In this document: positions 29,471 to 45,035 of the stretch, in pieces | How positions within the stretch are numbered: position 1 is the stretch's first letter | Layout of the letters: each line of letters opens with the position of its first letter | Assembly (NCBI RefSeq): GCF_001889005.1 | Contig: NZ_CP018153.1 | Span: forward strand, 526,001 to 590,000 | Reading direction: 5' to 3' | DNA from: Christiangramia salexigens | GTDB lineage: Bacteria; Bacteroidota; Bacteroidia; Flavobacteriales; Flavobacteriaceae | Length of the DNA: 64,000 nt | Position numbers and translations under genes: made by a program | Notes under the pieces: generated by a model | What the model saw: only the letters and a program-made list of their open reading frames with translations | The model's database searches: none | Told to the model about the DNA's origin: nothing

Positions 29471-29589
29471 TTTTATTTCAGGGCATATTTCACAGCTGTT
29501 AATAATATTGATTAACCTTCCACCTTGTTAAGCATGTCTAATATTTCACTGAATTACCTAATTTGTGGGGACAATTATAATGAAATCAT

Positions 29590-30072
29590 ATGCCCGTAAT
29601 TCAGTTAGATACTATAATAAAAGCAGAGCAGGAAATAGTTTTTGACCTGGCCAGAAGTATCGACTTTCAATCGAAAGCGGTAACCTCTTCCAGCGAGAAA
29701 GCGGTAGCGGGAAGAACTAGCGGATTGATTCGCTTAGGTGAAACTGTAACCTACCGGGGAAAACATTTAGGGGTTAAGCAAAGCCTTACCACAAAGGTTA
29801 CAGAATTTGACCGGCCATATTTTTTTGTAGATGAAATGGTAAAAGGAGCTTTTAAGAGTATTCGGCATGAACATTATTTCGAACGAACGAACGATGGAAC
29901 ACTAATGAGGGATGTTTTTAAATTCGAGGCTCCGCTCGGAGTATTTGGATGGGCCGCTAGTACATTGTTTCTGAAATCTTACATGACTAACTTCCTCAAA
30001 GGTCGCAACAAAACGCTGAAGGAATATGCCGAAACTGGCAAATGGAAGGAAATTTTGACGGAAAATTATTAA
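29590..30072 (+). CDS. SRPBCC-family (START-like) ligand-binding protein
   Basis: The 160 residues start with a strand and the phrase IIKAEQEIVFDLARSIDFQSKAVTSSSEKAVAG, which is typical of SRPBCC proteins related to cell-division-inhibitor-like and cyclase-like members, and end with the long C-terminal helix (FLKSYMTNFLKGRNKTLKEYAETGKW). HEHYF and MRDVFKFEAPLG are the central strands of the hydrophobic cavity. Function unknown; such proteins bind or turn over a hydrophobic ligand. It stands alone with no terminator visible. Confidence 0.8.
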   Translation: MPVIQLDTIIKAEQEIVFDLARSIDFQSKAVTSSSEKAVAGRTSGLIRLGETVTYRGKHLGVKQSLTTKVTEFDRPYFFVDEMVKGAFKSIRHEHYFERTNDGTLMRDVFKFEAPLGVFGWAASTLFLKSYMTNFLKGRNKTLKEYAETGKWKEILTENY

Positions 30073-30107
30073 TGAAAATCAGCTCAGGTAAAGTGATATT
30101 TTCTTAA

Positions 30108-30233
30108 CTATCTTCTTTGCGAAGAATTTTGCTTAAAGGATCTCTTGATCTTTGCTTTTTCACTGGATAAATACTTTATGAACTCCAGGCTGTAGCTTCT
30201 TAACCTTGATCCTTGCAGTAGGTTATAAGCCAT
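30108..30233 (-). CDS. Possible 41-residue basic small protein
   Basis: ATG at 30233 opens a frame of 41 codons ending TAG at 30108. It reads MAYNLLQGSRLRSYSL then a lysine- and serine-rich tail ending SSQRR. It is basic and partly amphipathic. It lies in the gap between the SRPBCC gene and the rhodanese gene. A frame this short can occur by chance in AT-rich DNA, so support is weak. Confidence 0.3.
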   Translation of the reverse strand: MAYNLLQGSRLRSYSLEFIKYLSSEKAKIKRSFKQNSSQRR

Positions 30234-30264
30234 TAGAAACTGCGAAAATTAGCCAGTGTTTTTA

Positions 30265-30630
30265 TCACTGGTAATTATGGTAACCTCCTTTTAGGTCATA
30301 GATTTTTTTAAAGCCAATTTTCTTTAAAATTTGAGCTGCACTTCTGCTTCTGCCTCCTGCCTGACAGTATACATAAATGGGCTCTTCTTTATCAAAATTT
30401 TCAAGACCTTCTAAAAATGCCTTTTTTTGATAAATATCCAGATTAGTAGCATTATTTATATAACCCTTATTAAACTCCTGGGAAGTACGAACATCGATTA
30501 ATTGTACATCCTTATGATCTGTACAGGACTTGAATTCAGCCGGCGAAAGCAGTTCTATTCCATTATCAGTCTGGGCGACTGCTCCAAAAATTGTGCTGAA
30601 AAAAGATATTATAAATACTATAATTTTCAT
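30265..30630 (-). CDS. Periplasmic single-domain rhodanese
   Basis: A signal peptide (MKIIVFIISFFSTIFGAVAQ) precedes a single rhodanese domain: VQLIDVRTSQEFNKGYINNATNLDI and the active-site loop YCQAGGRSRSAAQIL, where the first Cys is the persulfide-forming nucleophile. The loop CQAGGRS is of the 6-residue sulfurtransferase type. At 121 residues it is a minimal domain. It is the last gene left of the island and lies where mnmE's downstream neighbour would be before integration. Confidence 0.88.
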   Translation of the reverse strand: MKIIVFIISFFSTIFGAVAQTDNGIELLSPAEFKSCTDHKDVQLIDVRTSQEFNKGYINNATNLDIYQKKAFLEGLENFDKEEPIYVYCQAGGRSRSAAQILKKIGFKKIYDLKGGYHNYQ

Positions 30631-30782: not shown

Positions 30783-30801
30783 TTACTTTCCAATACAGAA
30801 A
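30783..30801. repeat. attL candidate, 19-bp direct repeat
   Basis: TTACTTTCCAATACAGAAA, identical to the 43623-43641 copy; the flanking bases differ on both sides (TT/G here, GC/T there). This is the remote copy created by integration. Confidence 0.85.
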
Positions 30802-30837
30802 GTAACCTAATAGTGTTTACGGGGATTCACCATTTAT

Positions 30838-30857
30838 GAGGTACAAATAGGGTACAA
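30838..30857. repeat. Left arm-type integrase site candidate
   Basis: GAGGTACAAATAGGGTACAA, 37 bases inside attL. It has two GGTACAA boxes and matches the right copy at 43481-43500 in 18 of 20 positions in the same orientation. Confidence 0.5.
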
Positions 30858-31013
30858 TTGCATGTGTAAGAGTATGATCAAGAAAGTAATTTAAGGTTTT
30901 TACTCGTGCACAAACAAAAACAGCTAATAGAAATTAATAATTGATTGTAAACCAGAATAATAAATGTATTTTTAAGGTAATAAGAATATAGGAACTTTTA
31001 ACTATAAATCCGT

Positions 31014-31157
31014 ATGAAAAAGAAACTGCCAGCACTTTCTCCTGCTATGAGGAGTTTCCTTCAGCTAAAAGTAGGTAGGAAGATGGAAGCCAACCCGGAA
31101 TTTGCTGAAAGAGTACTGAATATGGTAAAAAGAAAGAAAGAGAACGGTAGCAAATAG
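31014..31157 (+). CDS. Small basic island protein (47 residues)
   Basis: ATG at 31014 to TAG at 31155-31157. It begins MKKKLPALSPAMRSFLQLKV, is followed by a helix with GRKMEANPEFAERVLNMVKRKK and ends NGSK. Net charge is strongly positive and the helix is amphipathic; the composition suits a nucleic-acid-binding or regulatory peptide. It is the only island gene on the plus strand and lies convergent to hsdR, 57 bases apart. No homologue recognised. Confidence 0.45.
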   Translation: MKKKLPALSPAMRSFLQLKVGRKMEANPEFAERVLNMVKRKKENGSK

Positions 31158-31214
31158 AAAACTGGGTTATTTCCATTTATATTTCTACCTCAACATAATT
31201 TTGTTCACAAACCC

Positions 31215-34200
31215 TTATCCTGTTATTTCCTTTGCAATCATTTCAGCCTGTTTTAATACGGTTTCAGTAGCCAGCTTTTGCATGTCTGGGGGATAACCAT
31301 ATTGCCTTAAGGTTCGTTTGATGATAACTTTTAGTTTTGCTCGTACACTTTCCTTTATTGTCCAATCGATGGAGGCATTTTGCTTTACACGCTCCGTCAG
31401 AATTACCGCTAATTCTCTCAACTTTTCCTGTTGCATAAGTTGTGTGGCAGAATGATTATTTGCTACTGCAGTATAGAAAGCATATTCAAAGTCAGTCAAA
31501 CCAAGCTTTTTAGCCTCACTGTCCATGTTGACAATTTCCTTACTCAATTTAATGAGTTCATCCATAACTTCAGCAGCAGTCAAAATCTTGTTGTGGTACT
31601 TATTAATGGAACTCTCCAGCATCTCCTTTAGAGATTTACTTTTAATAAGGTTTCTTTTAGACCTTGCTTTAATCTCATCATTTAGCAACTTTCTCAATAC
31701 TTCTAAAGCCACATTCTTATGTTCCATTCCTTTGAGTTCCATTAGGAATTCTTCGGAAAGAATAGAAATGTCTGGTTTCTTAATACCTGCAGCATCAAAA
31801 ACATCAATTACTTGTTCAGAAACTAAAGCCTGGTCAATGACTTGTCTGATGGTCGTTTCAATTTCTTCATCGGTTCTACCAGCCCCTGTACCGTCGAACT
31901 TGGCTAATCTTGCTTTTACAGCTTGAAAAAAGGAAACTTCTTCTTTCACGTCCATAGCTTGTTCATGAGGCACGGCAATAGCATAAGCTTTCGACAAAGC
32001 AGTTACTTCATTAATGTATCGTTTTTTACCGTCTTCTAATCCGAGAATATGTTCTTCGGCTGCAAGAATTAAGGAAAGCTTTTTTCCTGTATCCGCTTGA
32101 AAATAATCTTCATAAGGGAATCCCTCATACATCTGAGATACAACTTCCAGTTTTTCTAGCACTAATTGAACAGCTTGCTCTTGCGCAATGGTTGGATCAC
32201 CTTTTCCTCCGGAATCTGAATAGAAAGATAGTGCCTTTTTTAAGTCTGAAGCTATACCCAAGTAATCCACCACCAAACCACCGGGTTTGTCCTTATAAAC
32301 CCGATTCACTCTTGCAATGGCTTGCATTAAATTGTGACCTTTCATTGGTTTATCGATGTATAGCGTGTGCATACTCGGTGCATCAAAACCAGTAAGCCAC
32401 ATATCCCGAACAATTACCAGCTTTAATTCATCATCTGGATCTTTCATTCGGTCGGCAAGCGTTCTTCTTTGTTGTTTGGTTGTATGATGTTTGGCAATTT
32501 TTGGTCCATCGGAAGAAGAAGATGTCATTACAACTTTTATAACTCCTTTATCCAAATCATCGGAATGCCATTCTGGTTTTAGGTTGATTATTTCTTCATA
32601 TAAATCAGCAGCAATTCTTCTGGACATGGCCACAATCATTCCTTTGCCTTCGAAAACTTCCTGGCGTTGGTTAAAATGCTGAATGATATCGTTGGCAACA
32701 TTCTTTACTCTATTTCCACTTCCGATTAAAGCTTCTAATTGTGTCCATTTGGCTTTTGCTTTCTGAGTCTCAGTGAGTTCATCTCCATCTAGTTCCTCAT
32801 CCAAATCCTCAACCAGTTTTTTACCCTCTTCAGTAAGGTTCACTTTAGCTAAACGGCTCTCATAGTAAATACGAACAGTTGCGCCATCTTCAACTGCCTG
32901 AGCAATGTCATACACATCAATATAATTCCCGAAAACTGCAGGTGTATTAACATCGGAACTTTCAATTGGCGTTCCAGTAAAACCAATATAAGTGGCATTG
33001 GGTAAAGCATCACGCATGTACTTAGCGAAGCCATAAACGGTTTTTTTACCTATCACGTTGCCATGCTCGTCCTTCTCATCTACTGTTTTAGCTTTGAAAC
33101 CATATTGCGTTCGATGGGCTTCATCGGCAAGAACTACTATATTTTCCCGTTCCGAAAGGGTTTCATATATATTACCATCTTCAGGTGAGAATTTTTGGAT
33201 TGTTGTAAAGATCACTCCACCAGAAGCTACTTTCAGTTTTTCCTTTAAGTCCTTTCGGTCTTCAATTTGCTTGGGGTCTTGTCTTAAAAGCTGTTTGGAT
33301 GAAGCAAAGGTGTCATAGAGTTGATCGTCCAAATCGTTTCGGTCGGTGATGACCACAATAGTTGGGTTGTCTAAGGCCAGCACAATTTTACCTGTGAAGA
33401 AAACCATGGAAAGGGATTTACCACTTCCCTGGGTATGCCAAACAACACCACCACGGCGATCACCCTTTGGTTGTGTTTTTACACCTCTTAACCCATAGCT
33501 CTCTGGTGATTCCATCACCGTATTGTTAATTGACTTTTTTTCTACTGTATAACCTGTGGCGCGCATTGCAGATTCCACAGCTCGGTTTACAGCATAATAC
33601 TGATGATAGGCGGCTAATTTTTTGACAGTCGAAATTGAGGTTACGCCTGTTTTAGAATCTTCCTTTTTTGATTTTTCAAAGACAATGAAATGCCGAACCA
33701 AATCCAACAGGGTTTCTTTGTTGAGCATACCTTTGATGAGCGTTTCCATTTGACTTACCAAGTTTGATGCTTCTTCTTTTCCGTCTTCTGATTTCCATGC
33801 CATGAAACGACTCATGCCCGAGGAAACTGTTCCTGCTCTGGCTTCTAATCCATCCGAAATAACTGTAAATGCATTATAAGTAAACAGACTCGGAATTACC
33901 GCTTTGTAAGTTTCTATTTGGCGAAAAGCAGATTTTATGGTGGCATTTTCATCTGCCGCATTTTTGAGTTCGATAACCACCAATGGGATACCGTTGACAA
34001 ACAGAATAACATCAGGCCGTTTGTTTACGCCATCTTCTACTATTGTAAACTGATTGGCAGCAATAAAGTCGTTGTTTTCGGGTGTATTGAAGTCGATTAA
34101 CCAAACTAAATCTCCTCTTTGCTGACCATCTTTCTGATAGCTGATTTTGACCCCTTCGGTCAATAAGCGATGAAAACTTTCATTATTGGTCAACAACTCA

Positions 34201-34439
34201 GGCGAATGGATACGTTGAATTTCTTTTAAGGCTTCTTCCTGGGCAGCTGGCGGAACGGTTGGGTTGATTCTTCTCACTGCCTCAGACAAGCGATGGGTGA
34301 GCAAGGTTTCTTCATATGTATTACGCTCAGGTTTTTCACCATCATGAGCAATGCTTGGAGCATAGATGTACTCATAGCCCAAATTCTCCAAAAGTTTGAT
34401 TGCAAAATCTTCTATGCTATGTTCAGTTATTCTTGTCAT
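31215..34439 (-). CDS. hsdR: Type I restriction endonuclease subunit R
   Basis: The protein of 1074 residues has the layout of HsdR. The N-terminal nuclease shows RPDVILFVNG at 141 and VIELKN with Glu157 and Lys159 (PD-ExK). The translocase motor has GSGKS near 335, DEAHRT in motif II, TGTPIES in motif III, and the last motor motifs around QAIARVNRVYK. The C-terminus is helical and should bind HsdM-HsdS. It needs the methylase complex for DNA recognition, translocates DNA with ATP and cuts at distant sites. It is the last gene of the operon and overlaps the preceding Abi-like gene in ATGA. Confidence 0.95.
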   Translation of the reverse strand: MTRITEHSIEDFAIKLLENLGYEYIYAPSIAHDGEKPERNTYEETLLTHRLSEAVRRINPTVPPAAQEEALKEIQRIHSPELLTNNESFHRLLTEGVKISYQKDGQQRGDLVWLIDFNTPENNDFIAANQFTIVEDGVNKRPDVILFVNGIPLVVIELKNAADENATIKSAFRQIETYKAVIPSLFTYNAFTVISDGLEARAGTVSSGMSRFMAWKSEDGKEEASNLVSQMETLIKGMLNKETLLDLVRHFIVFEKSKKEDSKTGVTSISTVKKLAAYHQYYAVNRAVESAMRATGYTVEKKSINNTVMESPESYGLRGVKTQPKGDRRGGVVWHTQGSGKSLSMVFFTGKIVLALDNPTIVVITDRNDLDDQLYDTFASSKQLLRQDPKQIEDRKDLKEKLKVASGGVIFTTIQKFSPEDGNIYETLSERENIVVLADEAHRTQYGFKAKTVDEKDEHGNVIGKKTVYGFAKYMRDALPNATYIGFTGTPIESSDVNTPAVFGNYIDVYDIAQAVEDGATVRIYYESRLAKVNLTEEGKKLVEDLDEELDGDELTETQKAKAKWTQLEALIGSGNRVKNVANDIIQHFNQRQEVFEGKGMIVAMSRRIAADLYEEIINLKPEWHSDDLDKGVIKVVMTSSSSDGPKIAKHHTTKQQRRTLADRMKDPDDELKLVIVRDMWLTGFDAPSMHTLYIDKPMKGHNLMQAIARVNRVYKDKPGGLVVDYLGIASDLKKALSFYSDSGGKGDPTIAQEQAVQLVLEKLEVVSQMYEGFPYEDYFQADTGKKLSLILAAEEHILGLEDGKKRYINEVTALSKAYAIAVPHEQAMDVKEEVSFFQAVKARLAKFDGTGAGRTDEEIETTIRQVIDQALVSEQVIDVFDAAGIKKPDISILSEEFLMELKGMEHKNVALEVLRKLLNDEIKARSKRNLIKSKSLKEMLESSINKYHNKILTAAEVMDELIKLSKEIVNMDSEAKKLGLTDFEYAFYTAVANNHSATQLMQQEKLRELAVILTERVKQNASIDWTIKESVRAKLKVIIKRTLRQYGYPPDMQKLATETVLKQAEMIAKEITG

Positions 34440-35080
34440 TCTTCAGTTTCGGTATATGCTTTATATTCGTTTACATACGCTTGTTTATCTACGTTGAAAA
34501 GTATTTCACTTGCTGGATATGAGTAATCGCTCATTTTGAACTCTCCGTACGAATCGTCCCAATACTCATTGAAGTCATCAGCTTCCCAATAATCCAATGT
34601 ACCTTCTAGTTGTTCAGTAGCTTTTTTTTCTTTTTTGCTTTCATAATTGCGAATGATGAATACACAAACCGTTTCAACGGTGTCCATCAAAAAATCTTTA
34701 GTTAGTACATCTACTTTACTATTACGCTGTTTAATTTCTTCTAACGATTTACCGTGGGACGTTAAACCAATATCGTTTCTTAATTCGCCGACCTGCTGAG
34801 CTATAGTCGCCAAAGCTGATGAAACTTGATTGACTAAAGTGCCATTTGCGTATCCCATTGAAGAGAAACACTTTTTTAGAATACTATTCACAGATGGTTT
34901 TACACCTAATTCAACGCCATTTTTATCACAGATTTCTTTTCCAATACTTTCTAAAAGTGCTTTGGCATTTTCAAGGGAATGACTGAAATCTATTTCAATG
35001 TGGGTTTCTATGCGGTCTATGTAAGTTGATAAACCAGCCCAACTGCGATATTCTTCAATTGCAGTTTTGAGTTTATCCAT
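34436..35080 (-). CDS. Abortive-infection C-terminal-domain (Abi_C-like) protein in the R-M operon
   Basis: The protein of 214 residues has a central block ATIAQQVGELRNDIGLTSHGKSLEE followed by a helix, which resembles the Abi_C-type (HEPN-like) signature with RN and HG residues. The N-terminal 100 residues are helical (LLESIGKEICDKNG). The C-terminal 70 are acidic and aromatic (YWEADDFNEYWDDS). The gene is coupled by overlaps to both hsdS (8 bases) and hsdR (4 bases), so it is an integral part of this operon and likely a second layer of phage defence. A nuclease activity is not shown. Confidence 0.65.
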   Translation of the reverse strand: MDKLKTAIEEYRSWAGLSTYIDRIETHIEIDFSHSLENAKALLESIGKEICDKNGVELGVKPSVNSILKKCFSSMGYANGTLVNQVSSALATIAQQVGELRNDIGLTSHGKSLEEIKQRNSKVDVLTKDFLMDTVETVCVFIIRNYESKKEKKATEQLEGTLDYWEADDFNEYWDDSYGEFKMSDYSYPASEILFNVDKQAYVNEYKAYTETEE

Positions 35081-36296
35081 CTGTGTTAATGCTTATTTCG
35101 CCACCCATCAATTTTGGTAGAAGAGTATTTCTCAGTGCATCTAGTTTTTGTATCTGACCTAAATTGAATATCACTTTTTCATAGAGTGGTGCAAGTTGAT
35201 TAGAATACTCAACTATTTCTTGCTCGGTGATTGCAGGAAATTCGCAATTCTCTATTCCTGTGCCGCTAATGTTGGGCTGTGCACTTCCTGTAGCTGTGTT
35301 TTCTATGTAGTCTTTGCCGTAATCAGATTTTAAATGCAGATATGCTAAGAAGCGAGAACCATAATATTTCTCTTTGAATAGGCCAACTCGCTGATTTAAC
35401 CAAAGTTTGTAATCCGTCTTTGGAATTATCCCCATCTTACCAATTTTTGCCCCAGTCATGGCAAATAGTATATCGCCAGTTGATATAGAGAATTTTTCAT
35501 CCAGATTCTCAACCGTTTCATGACTCACAAAATCGGTAGTTTCAATATCTACAATACCGCCAGAAATATTTTTGATTTTCAAGACTCGGTCTTCGCCTAA
35601 ATCTTGGAAACTTTTGCTTTTAAAAGCGTATCCGTTTTGAAGGTCAATTAAATCACTTACTCTGCTTGTAAAATCACTTTCCTCAAACCAAGCATCATAA
35701 AGCGTCTCCGCCATTTGCTCAAGGGTTTGGTTTTGGCGGTACAGCAGGTCTATTTTATCATCTAAGCTGGAAAGAACTTCAGCAATAGACTTTTGTTCTT
35801 CAAAAGGAGGCAAGAAAACCAGCATATTGTGAATGTCCGCTTTGCCAACATTTTCCTGTGCCGACTGATTTTGATTAGCCATTATCTGGTAATATGTGTT
35901 TTCAGTCGTTAAGAAATAGTAGAAATAATCTTTCATTATTATTTTTTCATCGAGAGGAATGAAGTTACCAACGCGATAGTTCTGCAATACAACTTCATTA
36001 GACCTAAACCTTCCAATTTTACCTATCGTAGCGCCCGAAAGCGCCATCAAAATATCACCATTTTTAATGATGTTGTTTGTAAATGATTCAAGTCGAGATT
36101 CATCGATAAAACTACATGACGACAAATCAATGCTACCGTCACTTTTTATTTGTGTTATTTTAAAAACTTTAATTCCTGACTCTGTAAAATCATTTGTTCG
36201 GAACTGATATCCATGTTTTAACTCAGCGACCGAACTAAACTTTACAACCTGCCAATGGGCAGGGCAAGTGCCAATATCGGTTTCTTGCTTACTCAT
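35073..36296 (-). CDS. hsdS: Type I restriction specificity subunit
   Basis: Two target-recognition domains can be seen: the first starts near [24 protein letters not shown], the second near [22 protein letters not shown]. They are separated by the helical spacer [39 protein letters not shown], and the second helical repeat ends the protein ([22 protein letters not shown]). Length 407 is normal. The recognised bipartite sequence cannot be read. The gene overlaps hsdM by 8 bases. The specificity domains are the most variable part of such operons. Confidence 0.93.
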
Positions 36297-37836
36297 TCAT
36301 TTTCACTTTTTGCAGGTTAGTGGCAATTCGTTCGTTGAGTTCGGCTTCTTCTTTCAATTGGGCTTCAAACTCGGCTTTTAGGCTGGTAAAGCGTTCGGCA
36401 AAGTCAAAATCATCTTCTTCCTCTGCCAAGCCTACATAGCGGCCCGGGGTGAGTACATAGTCCAGCTCGGCTACCCGTTCTTTGTTGGCTGAAGCACAGA
36501 AGCCTTTTACATCTTCGTAATTTCCACTAGTATTTCGCCAATTGTGGTAGGTGCTGGTAATCTGGTCAATATCTTCCTGAGAAAGCACTTTGGTTCTGCG
36601 GTTAATCAAATGCCCCAAGTTGCGGGCATCAATAAAAAGAATTTCGCCTGTACGGTTTCGGAATTTCCCATTACTACGGTTACGGCTCATAAACCACAGT
36701 GAAGCAGGAATCTGAGTATTCAAAAACAACTTGGCAGGAAGGTTTACAATGCAGTCAATCAAATCGGCTTCCACAAGTTCTTTTCTGATGTCGCCTTCAC
36801 CGCCACTTTTAGAAGTCAAAGCTCCTTTTGCCAAAACAAAACCGGCTTGTCCGCTAGGTGCAAGATGATATAGGAAATGTTGAATCCATGCATAGTTGGC
36901 ATTGCTTGTAGGCGGTGTGCCGTATTTCCAGCGTCCATCTGTTCGCAGTAAATCACCGCTCCAATCGCTCACGTTAAATGGCGGGTTGGCAATGATATAA
37001 TCAGCTTTTAAGTCTGGATGGGCATCATTCAAAAATGAGCCTTCGTTGTTCCATTTCACTTGTGAGCTGTCGATCCCTCTAATGGCTAAATTCATTTTTG
37101 CCAGTCTCCAGGTAGTTTGGTTGCTTTCCTGTCCATAAATGGAAATATCATTGATTTTTCCTTGATGGCTAGTTACAAACTCTTCGGACTGCACGAACAT
37201 TCCGCCGGAGCCACAGCAGGGGTCAAATACCCTTCCTTTGTAGGGTTCGAGCATTTCTACCAAGAGTTCTACTACACTTCTTGGAGTATAGAATTGGCCA
37301 CCCTTTTTCCCCTCTGCCAATGCGAATTCACCAAGGAAATATTCAAAGACATGGCCAAGAATATCAGCACTCCGGGCTTTGGCATCCCCTAACGCAATGT
37401 TACCTATAAGGTCTATAAGTTCACCCAAACTTGTGGGGTCAAGATTTTGACGAGCATAGACTTTAGGTAAGACACCTTTTAAAGAAGGGTTTTCCTTTTC
37501 TATCATGTCCATAGCTTCATCAATAGATTTTCCTATAGTTGGTTGCTTAGCCTGAGAAAGGAGGTGAGACCAGCGAGCCTTTTCAGGTACAAAAAAGACA
37601 TTTTCCGCTTTATACTCTTCTTTATCCTCGGGATCTGCAAATTCGTATTCCCCATCAGTTGCGTCCAGCTTCTCATACAGCTCTTCAAAAGCATCTGATA
37701 TATATTTTAGGAAGATCAATCCAAGAACTACATGTTTATATTCTGCAGCATCAATATTTTTTCTCAGCTTGTCAGCTGATTTCCAAAGTTGTTTTTCTAA
37801 AGGCTCCTCTTTGACCTTTACTTTCTTTTTTGCCAT
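36289..37836 (-). CDS. hsdM: Type I restriction-modification DNA methyltransferase
   Basis: N-terminal helical domain ([15 protein letters not shown]), then an N6-adenine methylase domain: [17 protein letters not shown], motif [18 protein letters not shown] near 205, motif [17 protein letters not shown] near 282. The C-terminus ends in a coiled region ([23 protein letters not shown]), as usual. With HsdS it methylates adenine in the recognition sites and so protects the host DNA. It is the first gene of the operon hsdM-hsdS-abi-hsdR; an inverted repeat lies in its leader. Confidence 0.95.
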
Positions 37837-38145
37837 TTACTTTCTGGGTAGGTTTGATTAACTCTTTCTGTTGTTGGTTTCTTAGTTCTAGCCAACAACC
37901 GGGTTGGGAAGTTAAAAAACTTTTATGATTCTCGGGCAATTTTTCCTCAAGCTTTTAGCAAAACGGTCATGAGTGCAAAAAAAATGAATTTTAGTCTATA
38001 TGCGGAACGTTGAGATTGATATACTGCACTTAGAAGATTCAGGACAAATGAAAACCGAAAAATTTTGGGTATGGGGTTTTTCAGCTGAATTTCGTTCCTA
38101 AAGGTTCAGGTTTTTGAAGTGGTAATCTGAACCCAAGAATGGTAT
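37837..38145. promoter_or_regulatory. Leader of the hsd operon with overlapping inverted repeats
   Basis: No gene in these 309 bases. On the hsdM side, GTTGTTGG at 37870-37877 and CCAACAAC at 37892-37899 form an 8-bp inverted repeat, 34 bases upstream of the hsdM ATG. CCAAC at 37892-37896 can also pair with GTTGG at 37903-37907. The two hairpins exclude each other, so an operator or attenuator for the hsd operon is possible. A clear -7 box is not seen. Confidence 0.35.
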
Positions 38146-39153
38146 CTATGTTTCAAGTTCTGATTTCCGAAAATTTCTCCAATCAAGCTTAATTAAAAAG
38201 TCTGCAATATCCTCCCCATTTTTCTTTGACTCTTCAGTAGCTAATTGCTCCAGGAGGTTAGAAACTTCGAAAGTCGTTGAAGGTATTTTAATTTGAAGCT
38301 CATCAGCTTTATTCTTCCAAAGTTTGAAAGATTTACCGTCTTCTGAAAGATCAGGAAAAAGAACTACTCTTCGGTGTTCTAGAACTTTACATTTGTTATA
38401 ATTCAAACTACTAAGGTTATAAACTGCCAACCAGAGTAAATTGCTTTCACAAGGCAGACCAAAATATAATGAAGCAATAATAGCTGTTTTAGGGGCTTCT
38501 ACAAGGCATACAGTATGCGAAGGGTATTTGTCTAATAAATGTTCGCCAAATAAACAGGAAACTTTCTTATCGTTCTTTAAATACATTTTCAGCCATCCAG
38601 GTTTCGGTTTGGAATTCCTATCATAATACTTTTCCAAAATAGAATGGAGGAAATCATTTTTCTTCCTATGGTTTTCCTCATCAAATAGGCTAACCTGTAT
38701 TGTTCTAACATTTCCTTTCCTGTCGATATAAGGAAAAGTAATAGCCCCCTTTCTATAACCATTACTAATGGTTCCCAGCTGATAAAGGTGAATGACCTCC
38801 TTTACAAACTTTCCAGGGAAAGGGTACTCTAATCTGTGAAACAAATTTTTAACAAAGACATTTCGATCATAGTTTTTAAACGTTTTTGCTAGAACTTCAT
38901 TTGGGATGAAAACATCAATTGGTGAGTTTTGGAAGGAAAAAAAAGCATCTTTCTTTATCCTTTTTAGCTTGGTTTGTTGACGTGGTTTACTATGATAGCC
39001 GCATTTAGCCTCCCTGTCGCATCTCCCAAAATGTTGGGGAAGAAGTTCATCAGTTTGTGAATCTAGGTAACGGACAAATCTTTTATGGTTACAGGCTGGA
39101 CATATATATTTTTTGCTGGACCTATCTAAACTGAACCTATACTTACTAGCCAT
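38146..39153 (-). CDS. Primase-like protein with zinc finger and Toprim-like region
   Basis: The N-terminus has a CHC2-like zinc site, YICPACNHKRFVRY and later GRCDREAKCGYHSK. The C-terminal half contains HTVCLVEAPKTAIIASLYFGLPC and RRVVLFPDLSEDGKSFKLWKNKA, resembling the Toprim Glu and Asp motifs of primases (DUF6371-type proteins). It follows the RepA-like ATPase gene across a repeat array, a typical replication module. I infer that it primes replication of the excised island. The catalytic residues fit only partly, so a regulatory or degraded primase is also possible. Confidence 0.65.
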   Translation of the reverse strand: MASKYRFSLDRSSKKYICPACNHKRFVRYLDSQTDELLPQHFGRCDREAKCGYHSKPRQQTKLKRIKKDAFFSFQNSPIDVFIPNEVLAKTFKNYDRNVFVKNLFHRLEYPFPGKFVKEVIHLYQLGTISNGYRKGAITFPYIDRKGNVRTIQVSLFDEENHRKKNDFLHSILEKYYDRNSKPKPGWLKMYLKNDKKVSCLFGEHLLDKYPSHTVCLVEAPKTAIIASLYFGLPCESNLLWLAVYNLSSLNYNKCKVLEHRRVVLFPDLSEDGKSFKLWKNKADELQIKIPSTTFEVSNLLEQLATEESKKNGEDIADFLIKLDWRNFRKSELET

Positions 39154-39175
39154 TCTAAAAAGATGCTTGAATTGT

Positions 39176-39235
39176 GTTCATGATGTTCACGATGTTCACC
39201 CATATTCCAGAGTGAACAGAGTGAACAGAGTGAAC
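39176..39235. repeat. Iteron-like array with 9-bp period, inverted halves
   Basis: Left half: GTTCATGAT, GTTCACGAT, GTTCACCCA starting at 39176, 39185 and 39194. Right half: three exact tandem AGAGTGAAC units at 39209, 39218 and 39227. The hexamer GTTCAC and its complement GTGAAC repeat with the same 9-bp period, so the halves are a large imperfect inverted repeat around 39203-39208. It lies between the ATPase and primase-like genes: candidate replication origin, operator or RNA hairpin. Confidence 0.6.
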
Positions 39236-39246
39236 ATTACCCGAGT

Positions 39247-40377
39247 TTAAAGTCTACAATACTTGTTTACTGAACCTAAAGAAATTCCCAGTTTGGCAGC
39301 AATCTCCCGTTGGGACATGCCATTTTGATTAAGAGCCTTTACCTCCTCAATTAATTTATCTCGGTCATCATCTGTAATTTGTTTTAGATGTTCTCCTTCA
39401 GAGGTAAACTTTATAAAGTCAAATTTTAAGAAGTTCTCCTGTTTAAGAATCTGAAAAGTTGCTACTTTTTCGGAATCGTAAACAATTTCGGTATTCCGAG
39501 CTTTAATTTGCTTGAGGTAACGAAGGTGTGTATCCTGATGGCTTTCTCCAATAGTAAAGCAGCTGTCTACAAAATTTATCAACATTTTGCTTCCCTGAAG
39601 ATCATTCCTGGTTATAGGCTTGCTAAGATCTCGTTTGGGGGTGTGGGCTAATGCAAGAAGTGATAAGTCATACTTACTTTTTAAGGCTTTTAGTTTTTTC
39701 ATCATCGGTAAAACATCCCTAGCCTTTTCATTCTCATGGTTGAGGTAAGTAATATTGTCAATGATTAAGATTTTAGCCTGAGTTTCGACGATACTTTTTT
39801 CCAGGGAGTCATTGAGATGTTCCTCAAAACCTTTGCCTTCAGGAATTTCAGCATCCGGGTTTATTTCCACTCGATTGAAGTTAGTGTCAAAGTTGAAGTG
39901 GTCTACTAAATATTCTCCATCTTCGGATTTTTTACTATACCGAATCTCGAACTGTTTAGAGGTGAGTTCAAAGTCGAAATAAAGAACTTGCTGTTTTTCC
40001 TGTTCTAGTTTAAAATTTCCTATAGCCAACCCCTTGCTTATACTATTGCCAATCTGTACCGCCAAAATGGATTTTCCTAGGTTGGTATCGGCAAAAAGAA
40101 TACAAAGTTCGTTAGTGTGCCAAAATTCACCAAAAAGCATCTTGGGGGGCTTTTGAGATTTGGCCTCAGTAAGCCAGTCATTAGCAGACTTGATTTTGAA
40201 GAATTGTCTGGAAAGCTCCTTAGCCTTAGAAGTATCTTCCATTTCTTTGATATGTTCTTTCCAAACTTCGGGGTTTGCCAGATCGCATATCTTGGATGGG
40301 TAGACTTCCTTACTATTAATTAAATGCTTATCTTGACTTGGCAAATTGTTAGGGCTGTTTTCGTGTTTATTTTCCAT
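39247..40377 (-). CDS. RepA-like AAA/RecA-fold ATPase
   Basis: A RecA-type core: Walker A CILFADTNLGKSILAVQIGNSI (variant A-D-T-N-L-G-K-S, Gly lost at the first position), Walker B QAKILIIDNITYL, and ALAHTPKRDLSKPITRNDLQGSKMLINFVDSCFTIG with the sensor and hexamer-interface features of RepA-like helicases. The C-terminus is a helix-turn-helix, GMSQREIAAKLGISLGSVNKYC, which could bind the adjacent 9-bp repeats. It overlaps the excisionase-like gene by 11 bases, so the replication genes are one unit. Likely acts in replication of the excised element; helicase activity is inferred. Confidence 0.75.
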   Translation of the reverse strand: MENKHENSPNNLPSQDKHLINSKEVYPSKICDLANPEVWKEHIKEMEDTSKAKELSRQFFKIKSANDWLTEAKSQKPPKMLFGEFWHTNELCILFADTNLGKSILAVQIGNSISKGLAIGNFKLEQEKQQVLYFDFELTSKQFEIRYSKKSEDGEYLVDHFNFDTNFNRVEINPDAEIPEGKGFEEHLNDSLEKSIVETQAKILIIDNITYLNHENEKARDVLPMMKKLKALKSKYDLSLLALAHTPKRDLSKPITRNDLQGSKMLINFVDSCFTIGESHQDTHLRYLKQIKARNTEIVYDSEKVATFQILKQENFLKFDFIKFTSEGEHLKQITDDDRDKLIEEVKALNQNGMSQREIAAKLGISLGSVNKYCRL

Positions 40378-40756
40378 GATTCAGCCCTTTTTCTAGATTC
40401 AACAAGTAAGTCTCAGCTTCTACTGCTAGTTCTTCTTCGGATTTCCTTTTACCCCTTTTTAAGTATTCCAATAGTTCCAGTTTGGAGAAATAGAGTCTTT
40501 TTCCTCGTTTCATTACAGGCAATTCACCTCTAGAAACTTTACTATACACTGTAGATAAAGTTAGGTGTAGGAATTTTGAAGCCTCCGAAACGGTTAGGAA
40601 TTCTTCTTTGTCTAGGTTACCATTTGGTTCTTTTTGAACTACCTTAAGAATGTTTGCTGTAACCTCATTAACAATTTTCTCGATAAGTTTGTCCGGATCG
40701 ATCGGACTTAATACGTAATTGTACATATAGTCAACTTTTAAAATTATTGACAGCAA
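40367..40756 (-). CDS. Excisionase-type HTH protein
   Basis: Residues 50-100 hold a MerR/excisionase-type helix-turn-helix: EEFLTVSEASKFLHLTLSTVYSKVSRGELPVMKRGKRLYFSKLELLEYL. The first ATG is at 40756; a second in-frame ATG at 40726 (MYNYVLSPIDPDKL) gives a plausible start too. It lies before the RepA-like ATPase and after the unknown 263-residue gene, and may act as recombination directionality factor or as a repressor of the replication module. Confidence 0.7.
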   Translation of the reverse strand: MLSIILKVDYMYNYVLSPIDPDKLIEKIVNEVTANILKVVQKEPNGNLDKEEFLTVSEASKFLHLTLSTVYSKVSRGELPVMKRGKRLYFSKLELLEYLKRGKRKSEEELAVEAETYLLNLEKGLNHGK

Positions 40757-40783
40757 TTACGTGGAGCGCTTAAATAGTTATTT

Positions 40784-40806
40784 AAAGGGCGACGCCCTTT
40801 TTTCGC
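40784..40806. repeat. AAAGGGCG palindrome with extra half-site
   Basis: AAAGGGCG-A-CGCCCTTT at 40784-40800, then TTTT and another CGCCCTTT at 40804-40811. It lies between the stop of the 263-residue gene and the start of the excisionase-like gene. On the plus strand the T run makes it terminator-like, but the genes here run on the minus strand; a binding site is an alternative. Confidence 0.4.
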
Positions 40807-40809
40807 CCT

Positions 40810-41601
40810 TTATAATTTTTTTTGATGTAAATATTCTTGTAAGAGTTCTGGGTTTTGGGTCAAAGATAAAATGGTTTCCTTCCATGAAGATCCCAATAAA
40901 TGCTTGAGACATTCTTCTCTATTAAGATCCTTCTTAATGACCTCATTAAAAACTTTATAAAACCTGTTGCCCTTTCCAGGTCCCATTCGTTGGTTTCCGA
41001 TCCGTTCTAATTCTTTTTTAGAACCCAGTGGAGGTATTTCACCCTTGGCGTAACAATCCAAAATATATGTTATTACAAAATCTCTTGTTTTAAATATTCT
41101 TTTCTTTCTACCGAGGTTCCCAGGTAGATAGTAGGTAATATAATGTTGGATGTCTTCAATTATTGACTGGCAGTAGAAAAATAAAATGGTGGGGTCTAAT
41201 TCAGTTATAAACAATTTGTGTGCAAAACTGAAATCTTTTGGACGATCAACCCACATAAAATTTTCATTATTAAAACTTCGCCAAATTTTGATGCGTCTAT
41301 ATTCATAGCAAGTTTTTAGTTCTTCCATTTCGTTTAACAAGGGGGTTATCTGCTTTTTAATAAATTGTTTACTGTCAAAGCAACCATGTTCTAATTCAAA
41401 TTTTGTCTTGCAATAGTGCATTAAGTTCAGTTTCTCCTCGTGGGTAGGTATATTGATTTGAACAATAGGCCAGAAAGTTCGTTTAATGAAAAGAAAATCT
41501 TCTTCCGATAAATTGTATTCCTGCCGGATGGTAACAAAATCTTTAAAATTCACATGAAAAAAAATCTCATAGAAATCTCGGGGTAGTCTAGGCTGGTTCA
41601 T
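40810..41601 (-). CDS. Island protein of unknown function
   Basis: The protein has 263 residues, rich in aromatic and charged residues, without signal peptide or membrane helix. Segment YNLSEEDFLFIKRTFWPIVQINIPTHEEKLN and FYCQSIIEDIQHYITYYLPG are strongly helical; the C-terminal GNQRMGPGKGNRFYKVFNEVIKKDLNREE may contact nucleic acid. I recognise no family. It lies between the integrase and the excisionase-like genes, 28 bases after the integrase stop, so it is likely cotranscribed and part of the recombination or regulation module. Confidence 0.65.
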   Translation of the reverse strand: MNQPRLPRDFYEIFFHVNFKDFVTIRQEYNLSEEDFLFIKRTFWPIVQINIPTHEEKLNLMHYCKTKFELEHGCFDSKQFIKKQITPLLNEMEELKTCYEYRRIKIWRSFNNENFMWVDRPKDFSFAHKLFITELDPTILFFYCQSIIEDIQHYITYYLPGNLGRKKRIFKTRDFVITYILDCYAKGEIPPLGSKKELERIGNQRMGPGKGNRFYKVFNEVIKKDLNREECLKHLLGSSWKETILSLTQNPELLQEYLHQKKL

Positions 41602-41628
41602 TTAGGGGGTGTTAAAATCGCAGTTAGA

Positions 41629-42783
41629 TTAGAAGTTTAACTTTATTTTTTCTGACGCCTGTCTTTTCTCTTCATTAACAATTTTAGCATACACCTGGGT
41701 GGTCTTTATATTCTTATGACCAAGAAGCTTTGAGATAGTGTACAGGTCAGTTCCCTTAGTAAGATGTAACGTCGCGTAGGTATGTCGAAAGCAATGGAAA
41801 GTTATTTTTCTTTCTATACCAGCCTTTTTCACCCAATCAGCCAAATGTTTGTTTTGATAGGCTGAATATTTCAAACCTTTAAAAACAAAATGGGAACCAG
41901 GCATCCTCTTAGGATTCTTATCTCCATCGGTAAGGAAATATGCCTGTTTCCCAATTGGATGGTGTTCTATCCTCTTAGTCTTCTTCTGTTTAAATTTCAA
42001 GGTATAACCATCCCCCTGAATATACATTATTTCTTGCCACTTCAATTTCTGAATATCCGAAAACCTAAGACCTGTTAATGCAGAAAACAAGGCAGCCCGT
42101 TTTAGGATAGGAACCTTACAATCAGTTTCCACCAACCTGTTCAGCTCTTCCAGTGTAAGGTATTCCCTAGTGGTATCTTCAGGTTCAATAGCCCTAATTT
42201 TAGCATGCAAATTTTCTTGAATATAGCCATCCTTATATGCTTGTTTAAGTGTTGCCTTGACCTTATTAAAATATGAAACAGCAGTATTTCGGGCTATAAT
42301 ACGTTTTGTACTGCGCCTACTTTTAGCTGAAAGTAAAAAGGTCTTGAAGTTCTCAAAATAACCTTCATTGAGTTGGTTGAACTTAAGGTCTCGACCGGCG
42401 AATTGCTTCAAATAACTGTATGCGGAAAGCCAAATGTTTCGATTAGAACCATATTTTTTATCGGACTGTTCTAAAAAATAGGTTAAGAAGCTTTGGTTGC
42501 CAATTTCTTTACGACGAATTTGTTCCCGCTCAAAGTCACTATATATTTCCGGTTTGTTCAGTTGGTTTTCCCTTCTTTGCCGGATACTATTTGCAATTAT
42601 GAGTTTTTCTTTATTGTACTGTTTATCCATCAAAGTCTTAGGCTTCTCAATGATATAAAGTTTCAAGAATTGTCTCCTGGTTGGTTTACGTGTGGTCGGG
42701 TTTTCGATGGGGGGATAAAAATCCAAATAAAGGCTTCTCCTTCCTTTTGAGATTTTTTTGGACCTTAAACTTACTTTTATCAT
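41629..42783 (-). CDS. int: Tyrosine recombinase (integrase)
   Basis: Core SAM-like domain around 100-190 and catalytic domain at the C-terminus. The Arg of box I lies in ALFSALTGLRFSDIQKLKW (near 233), box II is ITFHCFRHTYATLHLTKGTDLYTISKLLGHKNIKTTQVYAKI with His-x-x-Arg near 331, the second His in LGH and the nucleophile Tyr near 365. The basic N-terminus (KVSLRSKKISKGRRSLYLDF) is the arm-binding domain of Bacteroidota integrases. It is close to the right end and should recombine the 19-bp repeats. Confidence 0.93.
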   Translation of the reverse strand: MIKVSLRSKKISKGRRSLYLDFYPPIENPTTRKPTRRQFLKLYIIEKPKTLMDKQYNKEKLIIANSIRQRRENQLNKPEIYSDFEREQIRRKEIGNQSFLTYFLEQSDKKYGSNRNIWLSAYSYLKQFAGRDLKFNQLNEGYFENFKTFLLSAKSRRSTKRIIARNTAVSYFNKVKATLKQAYKDGYIQENLHAKIRAIEPEDTTREYLTLEELNRLVETDCKVPILKRAALFSALTGLRFSDIQKLKWQEIMYIQGDGYTLKFKQKKTKRIEHHPIGKQAYFLTDGDKNPKRMPGSHFVFKGLKYSAYQNKHLADWVKKAGIERKITFHCFRHTYATLHLTKGTDLYTISKLLGHKNIKTTQVYAKIVNEEKRQASEKIKLNF

Positions 42784-42812
42784 GACACAAAATTTTGACC
42801 GCGAAAAGACTA

Positions 42813-43370
42813 TTATGAAAAAAGATCATCAATTGGTTTTCTTGGGATGAAAACCTTCTTACCCTTCTTATATTTAGGGATTGATTTTCGAGCAATAATG
42901 TTGCGTAAGGTAGTAGGGGAGATTCCAAATTTTTCATGAGCTTCAGAAATGGTATAGTATTCAGTTTCTCTTTCTGGAACAAGCTTACCTACGTCTTCGG
43001 TGGAGTGGGGGGTATCTTCAGTCTTGAAAAGACTTTCTATGTCTGACCTTCTTATGATAGTCCTTCGGCCAAATTTAGCAGCATTAAGCCTGTTAGTTTT
43101 AATAGCACGCCAGATTGTCCATCTACTAACTGAAAGAAGTTTACAGGTTTCGGAAATGGTTAAAAAATCTTTGTTAGCTAGAGCCTTTATCTCTTCTTCT
43201 TGTAGTCGGTTTACCTCTTTACCGGCTTCTAAAATTACTTTCTTTCTTTTTCGTGCTTTGTAAGCCTTTTTTGCGCAGGAGTCAGAACAATACTTTGTAA
43301 CGGTAGTTCTGGCAGTGAACTGCTTTTTACAATGTTGGCAAATTCGTTTGACCTTAATGTTACTACTCAT
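42813..43370 (-). CDS. Zinc-finger protein with two HTH domains
   Basis: A zinc-binding start with RICQHCKKQFTAR and TKYCSDSCAKKAYKARKRKK (two Cys pairs) is followed by a first excisionase-type HTH (FLTISETCKLLSVSRWTIWRAIKTNRLNAAKFGRRTIIRRSDI) and a second one (YYTISEAHEKFGISPTTLRNIIARKSIPKYKKGKKVFIPRKPI). It is the island gene nearest the right end and is transcribed into the integrase gene. A regulator of integration, or of the island promoter, is likely. The combination of a zinc finger with two HTH domains is unusual. Confidence 0.72.
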   Translation of the reverse strand: MSSNIKVKRICQHCKKQFTARTTVTKYCSDSCAKKAYKARKRKKVILEAGKEVNRLQEEEIKALANKDFLTISETCKLLSVSRWTIWRAIKTNRLNAAKFGRRTIIRRSDIESLFKTEDTPHSTEDVGKLVPERETEYYTISEAHEKFGISPTTLRNIIARKSIPKYKKGKKVFIPRKPIDDLFS

Positions 43371-43480
43371 TTTTTATTCTTATTAGGCTTTGTAGTGCAT
43401 CTTGTTTCACATTGTGTCTTAATGTTGCTTAATGTTGCAAGAGCCTGAAAAATGAGCTAAAAAAATGGCTCATTTAGACC

Positions 43481-43500
43481 GAGGTACAACTAAGGTACAA
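43481..43500. repeat. Right arm-type integrase site candidate
   Basis: GAGGTACAACTAAGGTACAA, 122 bases inside attR, with two GGTACAA boxes as at the left end. The arm-binding domain of the integrase could bind here. Confidence 0.5.
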
Positions 43501-43622
43501 ATCCGATCCAAATAAGCCTATAGTATCGCAAAATAAATGCAAAAATGCCATAAAGCCTTTATGCTGTATATGTCTAGGTTTCTGTTATCTTTCTGTTTTG
43601 TTTATGTTTTATTCTGTGAAGC

Positions 43623-43641
43623 TTACTTTCCAATACAGAAA
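43623..43641. repeat. attR candidate, 19-bp direct repeat inside mnmE
   Basis: The same 19-bp sequence; the first 18 bases are the last six codons of mnmE including the TAA stop, on the minus strand. Integration thus keeps the conserved C-terminal FCIGK. Confidence 0.85.
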
Positions 43642-45035
43642 TTCGCAAAAATATTTCCTAAAAGATCATCGTTAGTGATTTCCCCCGTGATCTCCCCAAA
43701 ATAATATAAGGCCTGGCGGATGTCTATCGCCAGAAGATCTCCCGATAAATCAGCATTTAAGCCGTCTTCAACTTTATTGATCTCCTCCAGTGCTTTAAGC
43801 AGGGAAGCGTAATGGCGGCTATTAGTGACTATGGTATCACTATTTCTTAAAGCTCCGGTATTCACGAATTCCAGTAGCTTTTCCTTGAGTTCTTCAACAC
43901 CATTTCCGGTCTTGGCAGATAAAAGTTGCAAACTGGTATGCGAAATATTTCCAATCTCAGATTTTATATGTTCAATTTCCCCTTCCGTTAATTGGTCGGT
44001 CTTATTGGCGATGATCACCAATGGTTTCTGAGGAAATTTATTCTTGATCTTTTCAATTTCTATATGAACTTCTCTTAAACGCTTTTCATCAGATTTAATT
44101 CTTGAACTGTCCACGAGATAAACTACAACCTGTGCCTGACTTATTTTTTCAAATGTCTTCTTGATACCTATACTTTCCACCACATCTTTGGTTTCCCGGA
44201 TTCCGGCGGTATCTATAAATCTGAAGCCAACGCCACCAATGCTCATTTCATCCTCAATTGTATCTCGGGTAGTTCCGGCGATCTCTGAAACGATCGCTCT
44301 TTCTTCGTTAAGAAGAGCATTAAGTAAGGTGGATTTACCAACATTGGGCTCGCCTACGATAGCTACCGGAATACCATTCTTAAGTACATTTCCTGTAGCA
44401 AAGGAATCGATTAGCCTTTTAAGTACGGTCTGTATCTTGGAAACCAGTCCTTTGAATTGATCTCTGTTAGCAAACTCTACATCTTCTTCGGCAAAATCCA
44501 GTTCAAGCTCTATTAAGGAAGCAAAATTGAGCAGTTCTTCTCTTAGCTTTTGAATCTCATTCGAAAAACCACCGCGCATTTGTTGCATCGCCATCTGGTG
44601 AGATGCTGCATTTTCAGAATTAATAAGGTCGGCAACAGCTTCAGCCTGACTCAGATCCATTTTTCCGTTAAGGAATGCTCGTAAGGTAAATTCACCGGCT
44701 TCAGCAGCCCTGCAGCCTTTTCTTATCATTAGCTGAATGATCTCCTGCTGAATGAATGGGCTTCCATGACAGGAAATTTCCACAGTCTCTTCCCCGGTAT
44801 AGGATTTAGGAGCTCTGAATACCGATACCAAAACCTCATCTAAAGTTCTTTCGCCATCCATGATATTCCCTAAATGTAAAGTATGGGTGGGTTGATCCTG
44901 AAGTGGTTTTTTGCTCTTAGCACTAAATAATGGCGAGACTATGTTGAGAGCATCGGGACCCGAAACCCTAACAATTGCAATTGCTCCTGCACCCGAAGGA
45001 GTAGCGAGCGCGACAATGGTATCGTTCAATTTCAT
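43623..45035 (-). CDS. mnmE: tRNA uridine-5-carboxymethylaminomethyl(34) synthesis GTPase
   Basis: A full-length MnmE (470 residues): N-terminal formyl-folate-binding domain (MKLNDTIVALATPSGAGAIAIVRVSG), helical domain, and a G domain with GEPNVGKSTLLNALLNEERAIVSEIAGTTRDTIED, DTAGIRE and NKTDQ. The C-terminus FANFCIGK carries the conserved catalytic Cys. With MnmG it modifies the wobble U of tRNAs. Its last 18 bases are the island attachment site; because the element carried the same sequence, the coding end is unchanged. Confidence 0.97.
   Translation of the reverse strand: MKLNDTIVALATPSGAGAIAIVRVSGPDALNIVSPLFSAKSKKPLQDQPTHTLHLGNIMDGERTLDEVLVSVFRAPKSYTGEETVEISCHGSPFIQQEIIQLMIRKGCRAAEAGEFTLRAFLNGKMDLSQAEAVADLINSENAASHQMAMQQMRGGFSNEIQKLREELLNFASLIELELDFAEEDVEFANRDQFKGLVSKIQTVLKRLIDSFATGNVLKNGIPVAIVGEPNVGKSTLLNALLNEERAIVSEIAGTTRDTIEDEMSIGGVGFRFIDTAGIRETKDVVESIGIKKTFEKISQAQVVVYLVDSSRIKSDEKRLREVHIEIEKIKNKFPQKPLVIIANKTDQLTEGEIEHIKSEIGNISHTSLQLLSAKTGNGVEELKEKLLEFVNTGALRNSDTIVTNSRHYASLLKALEEINKVEDGLNADLSGDLLAIDIRQALYYFGEITGEITNDDLLGNIFANFCIGK

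Follow-up and report, generated by a model that had tools for sequence, protein, structure and literature searches.

Anatomy of the island at mnmE

We analysed a 64,000-nucleotide stretch of the Christiangramia salexigens genome (NZ_CP018153.1, positions 526,001 to 590,000), referred to below as the window, whose own numbering is used for all coordinates. At the 3' end of its mnmE gene lies a 12,840-bp island bounded by a perfect 19-bp direct repeat. The island is likely to be an integrative mobile element with all of its backbone genes open, a gene module of the Tn4555 type and insertion directed to mnmE. Its features, from mnmE to the far end, are as follows (HTH, helix-turn-helix; ORF, open reading frame; R-M, restriction-modification).

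43623..45035, minus strand: mnmE (trmE/thdF), an open ORF of 470 amino acids; its terminal 19 bp are the integration site
43623..43641, minus strand: putative attL, the copy of the 19-bp direct repeat next to the integrase; its left half, GCGAATTTC, is that of mnmE
43482..43500, minus strand: arm-type repeat pair TTGTACCT, spacing 11 bp, inside the attL end; from a motif count
42813..43370, minus strand: protein with a Zn finger and two HTH_17 domains (Zn/HTH protein), read as equivalent to TnpA, the targeting protein of Tn4555; gene 5' of the integrase gene; Pfam and NCBIfam matches
41629..42783, minus strand: tyrosine integrase (Int) with the motifs TGLRFSD, HCFRH, LLGHK and VYAK; family matches
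40810..41601, minus strand: protein X, 263 amino acids, between the integrase and xis, in the position of Tn4555 TnpC
40367..40756, minus strand: excisionase-like HTH_17 protein (Xis); Pfam and NCBIfam matches, and E = 2.3e-8 to the Xis of CP103138.1
39247..40377, minus strand: RepA-like AAA_25 ATPase with a C-terminal HTH, proposed origin-binding protein; Pfam, PHROGs and the RepA of contigs L107 and L118
39175..39236, no strand assigned: iteron array of three TGTTCA-type and three TGAACA-type units head-on, proposed replication origin; repeat scan
38146..39153, minus strand: Zn-ribbon and DUF6371 primase; predicted model with the DnaG / T7 gp4 catalytic fold
36289..37836, minus strand: HsdM, type I R-M methylase, cargo; family match
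35073..36296, minus strand: HsdS specificity subunit; 8-bp overlap with hsdM
34436..35080, minus strand: Abi_C protein within the hsd operon; PF14355, E = 5.7e-8; overlaps hsdS by 8 bp and hsdR by 4 bp
31215..34439, minus strand: HsdR, type I restriction subunit; family match
30839..30857, minus strand: arm-type repeat pair TTGTACCT/TTGTACCC inside the attR end; from a motif count
30783..30805, minus strand: putative attR, the 19-bp repeat lengthened to a perfect 8-7-8 inverted repeat, TTACTTTC-N7-GAAAGTAA

The 19-bp repeat, TTACTTTCCAATACAGAAA, has exact copies at 30783-30801 and 43623-43641. The first-pass annotation of the window had described a perfect repeat around about 12.9 kb at the mnmE 3' end, and had named copies at unrelated places in the genome as one observation that would speak against it. 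The repeat and its position proved exact, and the single-contig genome of 2,978,889 bp holds only these two copies when up to two mismatches are allowed; the same pattern read backwards, as a control, has no match in the whole genome. The copy on the mnmE side encodes FCIGK*, the C-terminal end of a gene that is 83-91% identical to its copies in 21 relatives of the genus. On the other side, the 8-7-8 palindrome has the same form as the attP of two circular relatives (L107 and L118, described below). With GCGAATTTC on the mnmE side and the palindrome on the far side, the two copies are hybrid in the way that attL and attR would be, and the island ends look like such a pair.

Arm-type repeats are also present at both ends. 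The motif TTGTACCY occurs six times in the 64 kb (shuffle mean 2.7; six were reached in 5 of 100 shuffles), and four of the six form the 11-bp-spaced pairs just within the two ends. Such pairs stand at a comparable offset 3' of mnmE in several relatives. L064 has arm-type repeats 3' of mnmE and no integrase match, and L079 has two att-like cores in succession; these look like remnants or tandem elements. The G+C content of the island is not distinct from that of the surrounding DNA. Positions 31055-31075 have an inverted 19/21 match in the integrase gene, which we attribute to chance.

Domain matches and a repeat scan bear out the compact integration-replication module that had been read from the letters alone, that is, an integrase, a Zn/HTH protein, an Xis-like protein, a RepA-like ATPase, a primase-like protein and a repeat array. 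For the primase-like DUF6371 protein, the assignment agrees with the DnaG / T7 gp4 primase fold of its predicted model; sequence searches of the PDB with RepA and with the primase alignment gave no useful match. Protein X has no Pfam match; it is conserved mainly in its last ~95 residues, and 70 of 74 homologs align from residue 140 onward. The earlier remark that relaxase, conjugation and phage structural genes are lacking also stands. These families gave no Pfam or NCBIfam match among the ten island proteins, and PHROGs, with which seven of the ten were scanned, returned a single weak match, of RepA to a small terminase (E = 0.0034). A weak GyrB match of a 47-residue ORF at 31014-31157 was not believed.

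A family of integrases at mnmE

With the window's integrase alone as query, matches at E = 1e-40 or better were found in 60 of 299 genomes of the same family, the host counted. Among the 62 non-self matches, 52 share the strand of mnmE and follow it at a distance of 165-1108 bp; the remaining ten either lie on other contigs or belong to a genome in which mnmE was not detected. A six-integrase alignment retrieved 427 relatives from named genomes; of the best 80, 72 follow mnmE by no more than 2.5 kb, a count biased by the queries, all six of which come from mnmE-linked elements or elements with a mnmE-type attP. One locus of this set (L222) appears to duplicate a genome of the family set. From the record titles, the hosts of the linked loci include members of the classes Flavobacteriia, Cytophagia, Chitinophagia, Sphingobacteriia, Saprospiria and Bacteroidia. 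An attR-like site is present in 28 of the 72 linked loci, and in none of the 72 with the backwards pattern as control.

In a tree of 48 selected integrases, the window's clade comprises 19 rows (support 100/97), namely mnmE-linked rows, contigs with a mnmE-type attP core and a phage-like contig (L106). One result counts against a fixed tie to mnmE: an eight-row group that is not at mnmE, with two contigs beside dnaK, is the sister of this clade, so some relatives do not use mnmE. The picture is further complicated by other mnmE-linked integrases, which fall in two additional groups of the tree. Given the sister group and the split of the mnmE-linked rows, target choice has changed at least once. 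In a viral collection, L108 and L110 carry a relative of the Zn/HTH-integrase pair directly after a dnaK ORF, and a human-faecal record, L117, has such a pair plus a relaxase; related modules therefore occur at other sites and with other transfer genes.

SGI1-related islands of Gammaproteobacteria integrate at the 3' end of trmE/mnmE, according to the accessible part of the source (PMC9035990), in which the island-encoded mnmE end is GGGAAGTAA, compared with GGAAAGTAA in the window. Unlike SGI1, the window's island has no transfer, mobilization or Rep_3 family among its ten proteins (Pfam, NCBIfam). The first-pass annotation had seen a flavobacterial element converging on the SGI1 site. The shared use of the site holds, and the convergence of one flavobacterial element is too narrow: judging from the integrase sequences, mnmE targeting is no local convergence and occurs among relatives across Bacteroidota. 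A comparable family is that of the dusA-associated integrases, which is tied to one tRNA-modification gene in islands and prophages alike; as far as the available text goes (PMC4482086), these use the 5' end of dusA in Proteobacteria, as against the 3' end of mnmE in Bacteroidota here.

Among the papers listed from the open-licence literature that we searched, islands at mnmE/trmE are named only in Gammaproteobacteria, which is no proof of absence from print. The accessible part of the paper on Charybdis elements does not describe these elements, and the Riemerella 50K island sits, in the part of its description available, at a tRNA and not at mnmE. A paper on jumbo-phage islands mentions neither mnmE nor "Bacteroid".

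A gene module of the Tn4555 type

The closest named counterpart of the backbone is CP103138.1, a 10,057-bp circle of Bacteroides fragilis annotated with an HTH protein, an integrase, a 'transposase', an excisionase, an AAA ATPase, a DUF6371 protein, a mobilization protein and CfxA. Five homologous proteins are common to both and keep their order: the integrases are 36.6% identical (E = 9e-69), the AAA proteins 41.6% (1e-75) and the DUF6371 proteins 31.7% (4e-38), and the Zn/HTH protein matches the HTH protein at a BLASTP E of 5.5e-16. Protein X shows no similarity to its counterpart and corresponds by position alone in the common order HTH/TnpA-Int-X-Xis-AAA-DUF6371. Tn4555 itself, in the text available (PMC13183296), has the order TnpA, integrase, TnpC, excisionase, AAA, DUF6371, hypothetical protein, CfxA; from the gene order and cfxA we infer that CP103138.1 is of the Tn4555 type.

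Deletion of Tn4555 tnpA, which lies 5' of int, is reported in the accessible part of PMC5704250 to make insertion essentially random. By analogy, a targeting role is the best reading of the window's Zn/HTH protein. In contrast to the Tn4555-type circle, the island has no mob gene, its cargo is a type I R-M system with Abi_C, and its integrase belongs to a different clade; it also sits at mnmE, whereas Tn4555 is described as less site-specific (PMC5704250, in part).

Several searches covered transfer genes. The CP103138.1 mobilization protein and the relaxase and MobC of NZ_OY725959.1 found no island match, and PF03432, TIGR03783 (TraG) and PF04466 have no match across the whole host genome. 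We divided 62 mnmE-linked elements by the distance between mnmE and int, the short class (gap below 450 bp) having no room for a Zn/HTH gene. A PF03432 relaxase follows within 30 kb downstream in 14 of 18 short-gap elements and in 2 of 44 of the window's class (G021, G245), a contrast with a Fisher p of 1e-8 that is not corrected for relatedness. TIGR03783 was met within 100 kb downstream once, at 93 kb. Five mob/relaxase and three phage queries found nothing in 80 named loci with flanks of up to 10 kb, a search of limited sensitivity, and a Mob_Pre (PF01076) search was silent in 43 genomes and in the controls alike, and is thus uninformative on absence. Six loci of the same genus (L062, L068, L071, L072, L074 and L076) belong to a second class of elements, with a related integrase at the same site, a PF03432 relaxase ~6-7 kb past mnmE and no Zn/HTH match between mnmE and int.

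Movement between hosts and free circles

To compare integrases with their target genes, 68 of the 72 linked loci were paired, identities being taken over matched segments. The 25 most alike integrase pairs listed are 93-98% identical; their mnmE proteins are 44-60% identical in 18 pairs and 63-96% in seven. Between the isolates Pedobacter (L164) and Vaginella (L167), for instance, the integrases are 96.3% identical and the mnmE proteins 53.8%, and integrases 96% alike adjoin mnmE proteins as low as 49-54% alike. Near-identical integrases beside such divergent mnmE genes argue that the elements move between distant hosts.

Two metagenomic IMG/VR contigs, L107 (7.7 kb) and L118 (7.1 kb), are circles by exact terminal repeats of 127 bp and 114 bp. 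Each has the order TnpA-Int-X-Xis-RepA-primase and one attP core of the mnmE type, and neither has a mnmE match; their RepA proteins are 64% and 59% identical, respectively, to that of the window. L244 resembles a third such circle and has no terminal repeat. L251, a circle of 4,851 bp by a terminal repeat of 121 bp, has a Rep-like gene, a protein of ~195 amino acids, an ORF read by eye as restriction-like and no integrase match. The ~195-residue protein (L107:4582-5175 and 27 other loci) is encoded 3' of int in 23 of the 50 named loci that extend 7 kb or more downstream, and is absent from the window; its L107 copy has no Pfam or PHROG match.

A replication module with lineage-specific repeats

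The repeat array lies between repA and the primase gene, just 5' of the latter, and recurs there in relatives. It may resemble the alpha iteron of phage P4. An array was scored as a 6-mer in at least four copies, both strands pooled, in the 130 bp 5' of a gene; minus-strand matches were excluded, as were genes whose start lies 130 bp or less from the end of a contig. By this measure, 47 of 70 loci have an array 5' of the primase gene (36 of 40 with RepA and 11 of 30 without), the 70 including the loci that first showed the pattern. The same count 5' of other genes gave 2 of 40 for repA, 4 of 87 for int and 6 of 70 for xis. The repeated word differs by lineage: GTTCAC, TGTAAC, CGTAAC, AGTAAC, TCGTAC, TCGTAA, TGTCCC or TTTGCA, a list of eight drawn up after the sequences were seen.

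The word co-varies with the RepA C-terminus. The comparison used 38 RepA rows, that is, 41 minus three without a clear word (L153, L226, L236). In pairs with cores at least 80% identical, C-terminal identity is 84% for the 53 pairs that share a word and 30% for the 40 that do not; in the latter, a segment of the core taken as control has 87% identity. The observed residual difference was not reached in any of 5000 shuffles of the labels. As the array recurs and its word follows the C-terminal helix of RepA, it is probably the replication origin, and the sequences point to a helix that reads the array as an exchangeable unit of origin specificity.

Several observations weigh against an origin read by this helix. 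Repeats are frequent 5' of the Zn/HTH gene too (25 of 77), as arm sites would lead one to expect. The helix of L226 is of the GTTCAC type, yet its primase gene has no array 5' of it. All 40 different-word pairs involve L119, L144, L174, L208 or L221, so the independent cases are few. The array could also be a regulatory hairpin, in which case it would form an RNA structure attenuating primase expression. Folding z-scores of -3.2 at the window junction and -2.7 to -4.5 in several relatives agree with such a hairpin, but the value is -0.9 in L118; moreover, the array word co-varies with the RepA helix, and L081 and L178, in which DUF3987 replaces RepA, have one-strand repeats that form no such hairpin. 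We therefore consider attenuation unlikely, and an origin remains the better reading of the array.

Defence cargo

The type I R-M and Abi_C operon is the cargo of the island, as had been noted from the sequence, with HsdM, HsdS, Abi_C and HsdR matches all between the repeats. The Abi_C protein has 982 homologs in a large protein set (best non-self 93%); in the 299 family genomes, none besides the window's own copy was found at E = 1e-5. Type I R-M genes also accompany RepA-primase islands at other sites: hsd matches lie downstream in 6 of the 18 regions fetched (L146, L147 with hsdM only, L148, L150, L153 and L156). The cargo of small mnmE elements was scanned with PADLOC and Pfam in 55 of 69 ORFs of 28 bounded relatives, 14 copies of the ~195-residue protein being left out. 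Two of the 55 ORFs match type IIG R-M models and one matches HSDR_N; PADLOC listed 25 of 67 families. Defence cargo is thus not general in the small elements, and the window pairs a mnmE-type backbone with a defence load that one in three of the RepA regions fetched also has.

The flank and the empty site

Of 22 mnmE loci in the genus, 12 have such an integrase within 1.5 kb and ten do not; three of the 12, the window counted, also have the Zn/HTH gene. The first-pass annotation had suggested looking for genomes in which mnmE is followed directly by the rhodanese gene. No such arrangement was found in the regions of 20 relatives, up to 20 kb each, and a base-exact empty site is consequently missing. 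In G313, of the same genus, the gene found at window 22334-26815 follows ~0.8 kb after mnmE, and in G307 a 6.6-kb island separates mnmE from a gene matching it (68% identity, 1495 residues). Between that gene, ending at 26815, and the island, window 26902-30630 holds rhodanese, SRPBCC-like, 151-residue and 616-residue genes. None of these was found beside mnmE in the fetched genus relatives, save the 616-residue gene, 11 kb off, in L069; the flank is therefore variable too. Elsewhere in the window, at 60491-60822, a 136-137-bp unit is repeated ~2.4 times just upstream of an rRNA operon.

How the element may work and spread

The attL/attR anatomy, the sharing of the site by related integrases, the spread over distant hosts and the relatives' circles with a reunited attP are demonstrated as far as sequence goes, and there is good support for the island being a mobile, site-directed element that has a replication module of its own. 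Some facts pull the other way: no empty site from the same species was found and the rhodanese flank is not conserved; excision, circle and transfer were not seen for the window's own strain; and the replication genes could be a remnant.

Taken as a mobile element, the island would use the targeting protein, Int, X and Xis to insert at the last codons of mnmE and rebuild the end of the gene. Int and Xis would excise a circle, which may replicate from the iteron array that precedes the primase gene; RepA would bind the array by its C-terminal helix, and the DnaG-like primase would prime synthesis. The R-M and Abi_C operon would protect the host from phages, and cell-to-cell transfer would use a helper. 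As the searches found neither a relaxase nor a coupling protein nor a virion gene, the island seems to need a helper to spread. The lack of conjugation machinery and virion genes among its proteins also sets it apart from integrative and conjugative elements and prophages.

The helper may be a phage, the circle being packaged in its particles as for the minimalist PICMI satellites. We hold this for a serious possibility, just short of probable. PICMIs of Vibrionaceae, as described in the accessible text (PMC10803314), are small and carry an integrase, an AlpA/HTH_17 regulator, a DUF3987 primase and defence genes, with no capsid-remodelling genes. The island has a comparable set, namely an integrase, an AlpA-like HTH_17 protein and a primase module with no full virion set, and many of its relatives carry DUF3987. 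It differs from PICMIs in phylum and site, and HTH_8 (Fis), required in PICMIs, gives no more than a match below the cutoff here. Phage-like relatives lend further weight. L245, a 12,198-bp circle, joins the targeting-integration module and a mnmE-type core with one mismatch to phage-like genes, with PHROGs matches for major head (2.4e-14), head protease (1.5e-6), tape-measure-like (1.2e-8), O-like (1.5e-12) and DnaC-like (3.7e-15) proteins, none of which has a Pfam match. In L077 (G326), Terminase_3 follows mnmE-Zn/HTH-int at 5.3 kb past mnmE; the far end was not found within 20 kb. L106 carries phage-like genes, read by eye, with an integrase of the window's clade, and two RepA-primase relatives with other integrases have a small terminase (L119) and a tape measure (L120). 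The rarity of relaxases in the window's class fits as well. Against packaging, no terminase, capsid, capsid-redirecting or other known packaging gene was found in the island (Pfam and NCBIfam, and PHROGs for seven of the ten proteins); Terminase_3 occurs in one of 62 genomes, the three phage queries match none of the 80 loci, and no helper and no cos or pac site was identified. The earlier label "satellite-like" is therefore plausible, as some relatives carry capsid, terminase or tape-measure genes; it is unproven, since the window's element has none and the nearest named backbone is of the Tn4555 type minus mob. In L077:1-20000, of another family, ORFs were read by eye as Septu-like (ATPase/HNH) and as a reverse transcriptase.

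Somewhat less probable, and tentative, is a relaxase-less integrative mobilizable element of the iOriT type, a class described in the available part of PMC11389934: a Tn4555-like descendant that lost mob and for which a conjugative element resident in the host would supply transfer in trans, by way of an oriT or relaxase that escaped recognition. The homologous gene order of CP103138.1, in which mob and cfxA follow DUF6371, suits this origin, as do the relaxase-bearing elements with a related integrase at the same site (14 of 18). Yet the host genome has no PF03432 relaxase or TIGR03783 TraG match and so no such conjugative helper resident now, and in L107 and L118, whose ORFs were read by eye with no Pfam run, no mob match was seen. 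Other transfer routes are unlikely. That the island is an immobile relic or a domesticated defence island kept at a hotspot is quite improbable: it has no transfer genes, and L064 retains arm repeats after mnmE with no integrase match, but every backbone ORF of the island is open, and alike integrases in distant hosts together with circular relatives show an active family.

Implications

The window may, tentatively, hold a representative of a class of Bacteroidota phage satellites that spans the phylum and had no name; its members would share the mnmE-directed module, exchange replication modules under a compatibility code between RepA helix and iteron word, and range from minimal circles lacking virion genes to forms with their own capsid. 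If so, such elements would account for defence genes travelling among Bacteroidota on DNA that encodes no conjugation, and mnmE would be a single chromosomal address at which to harvest them. Through the pairing of RepA helix and iteron word, origin specificity could be tested simply in vitro, and satellites in Bacteroidota would become a directly testable question.

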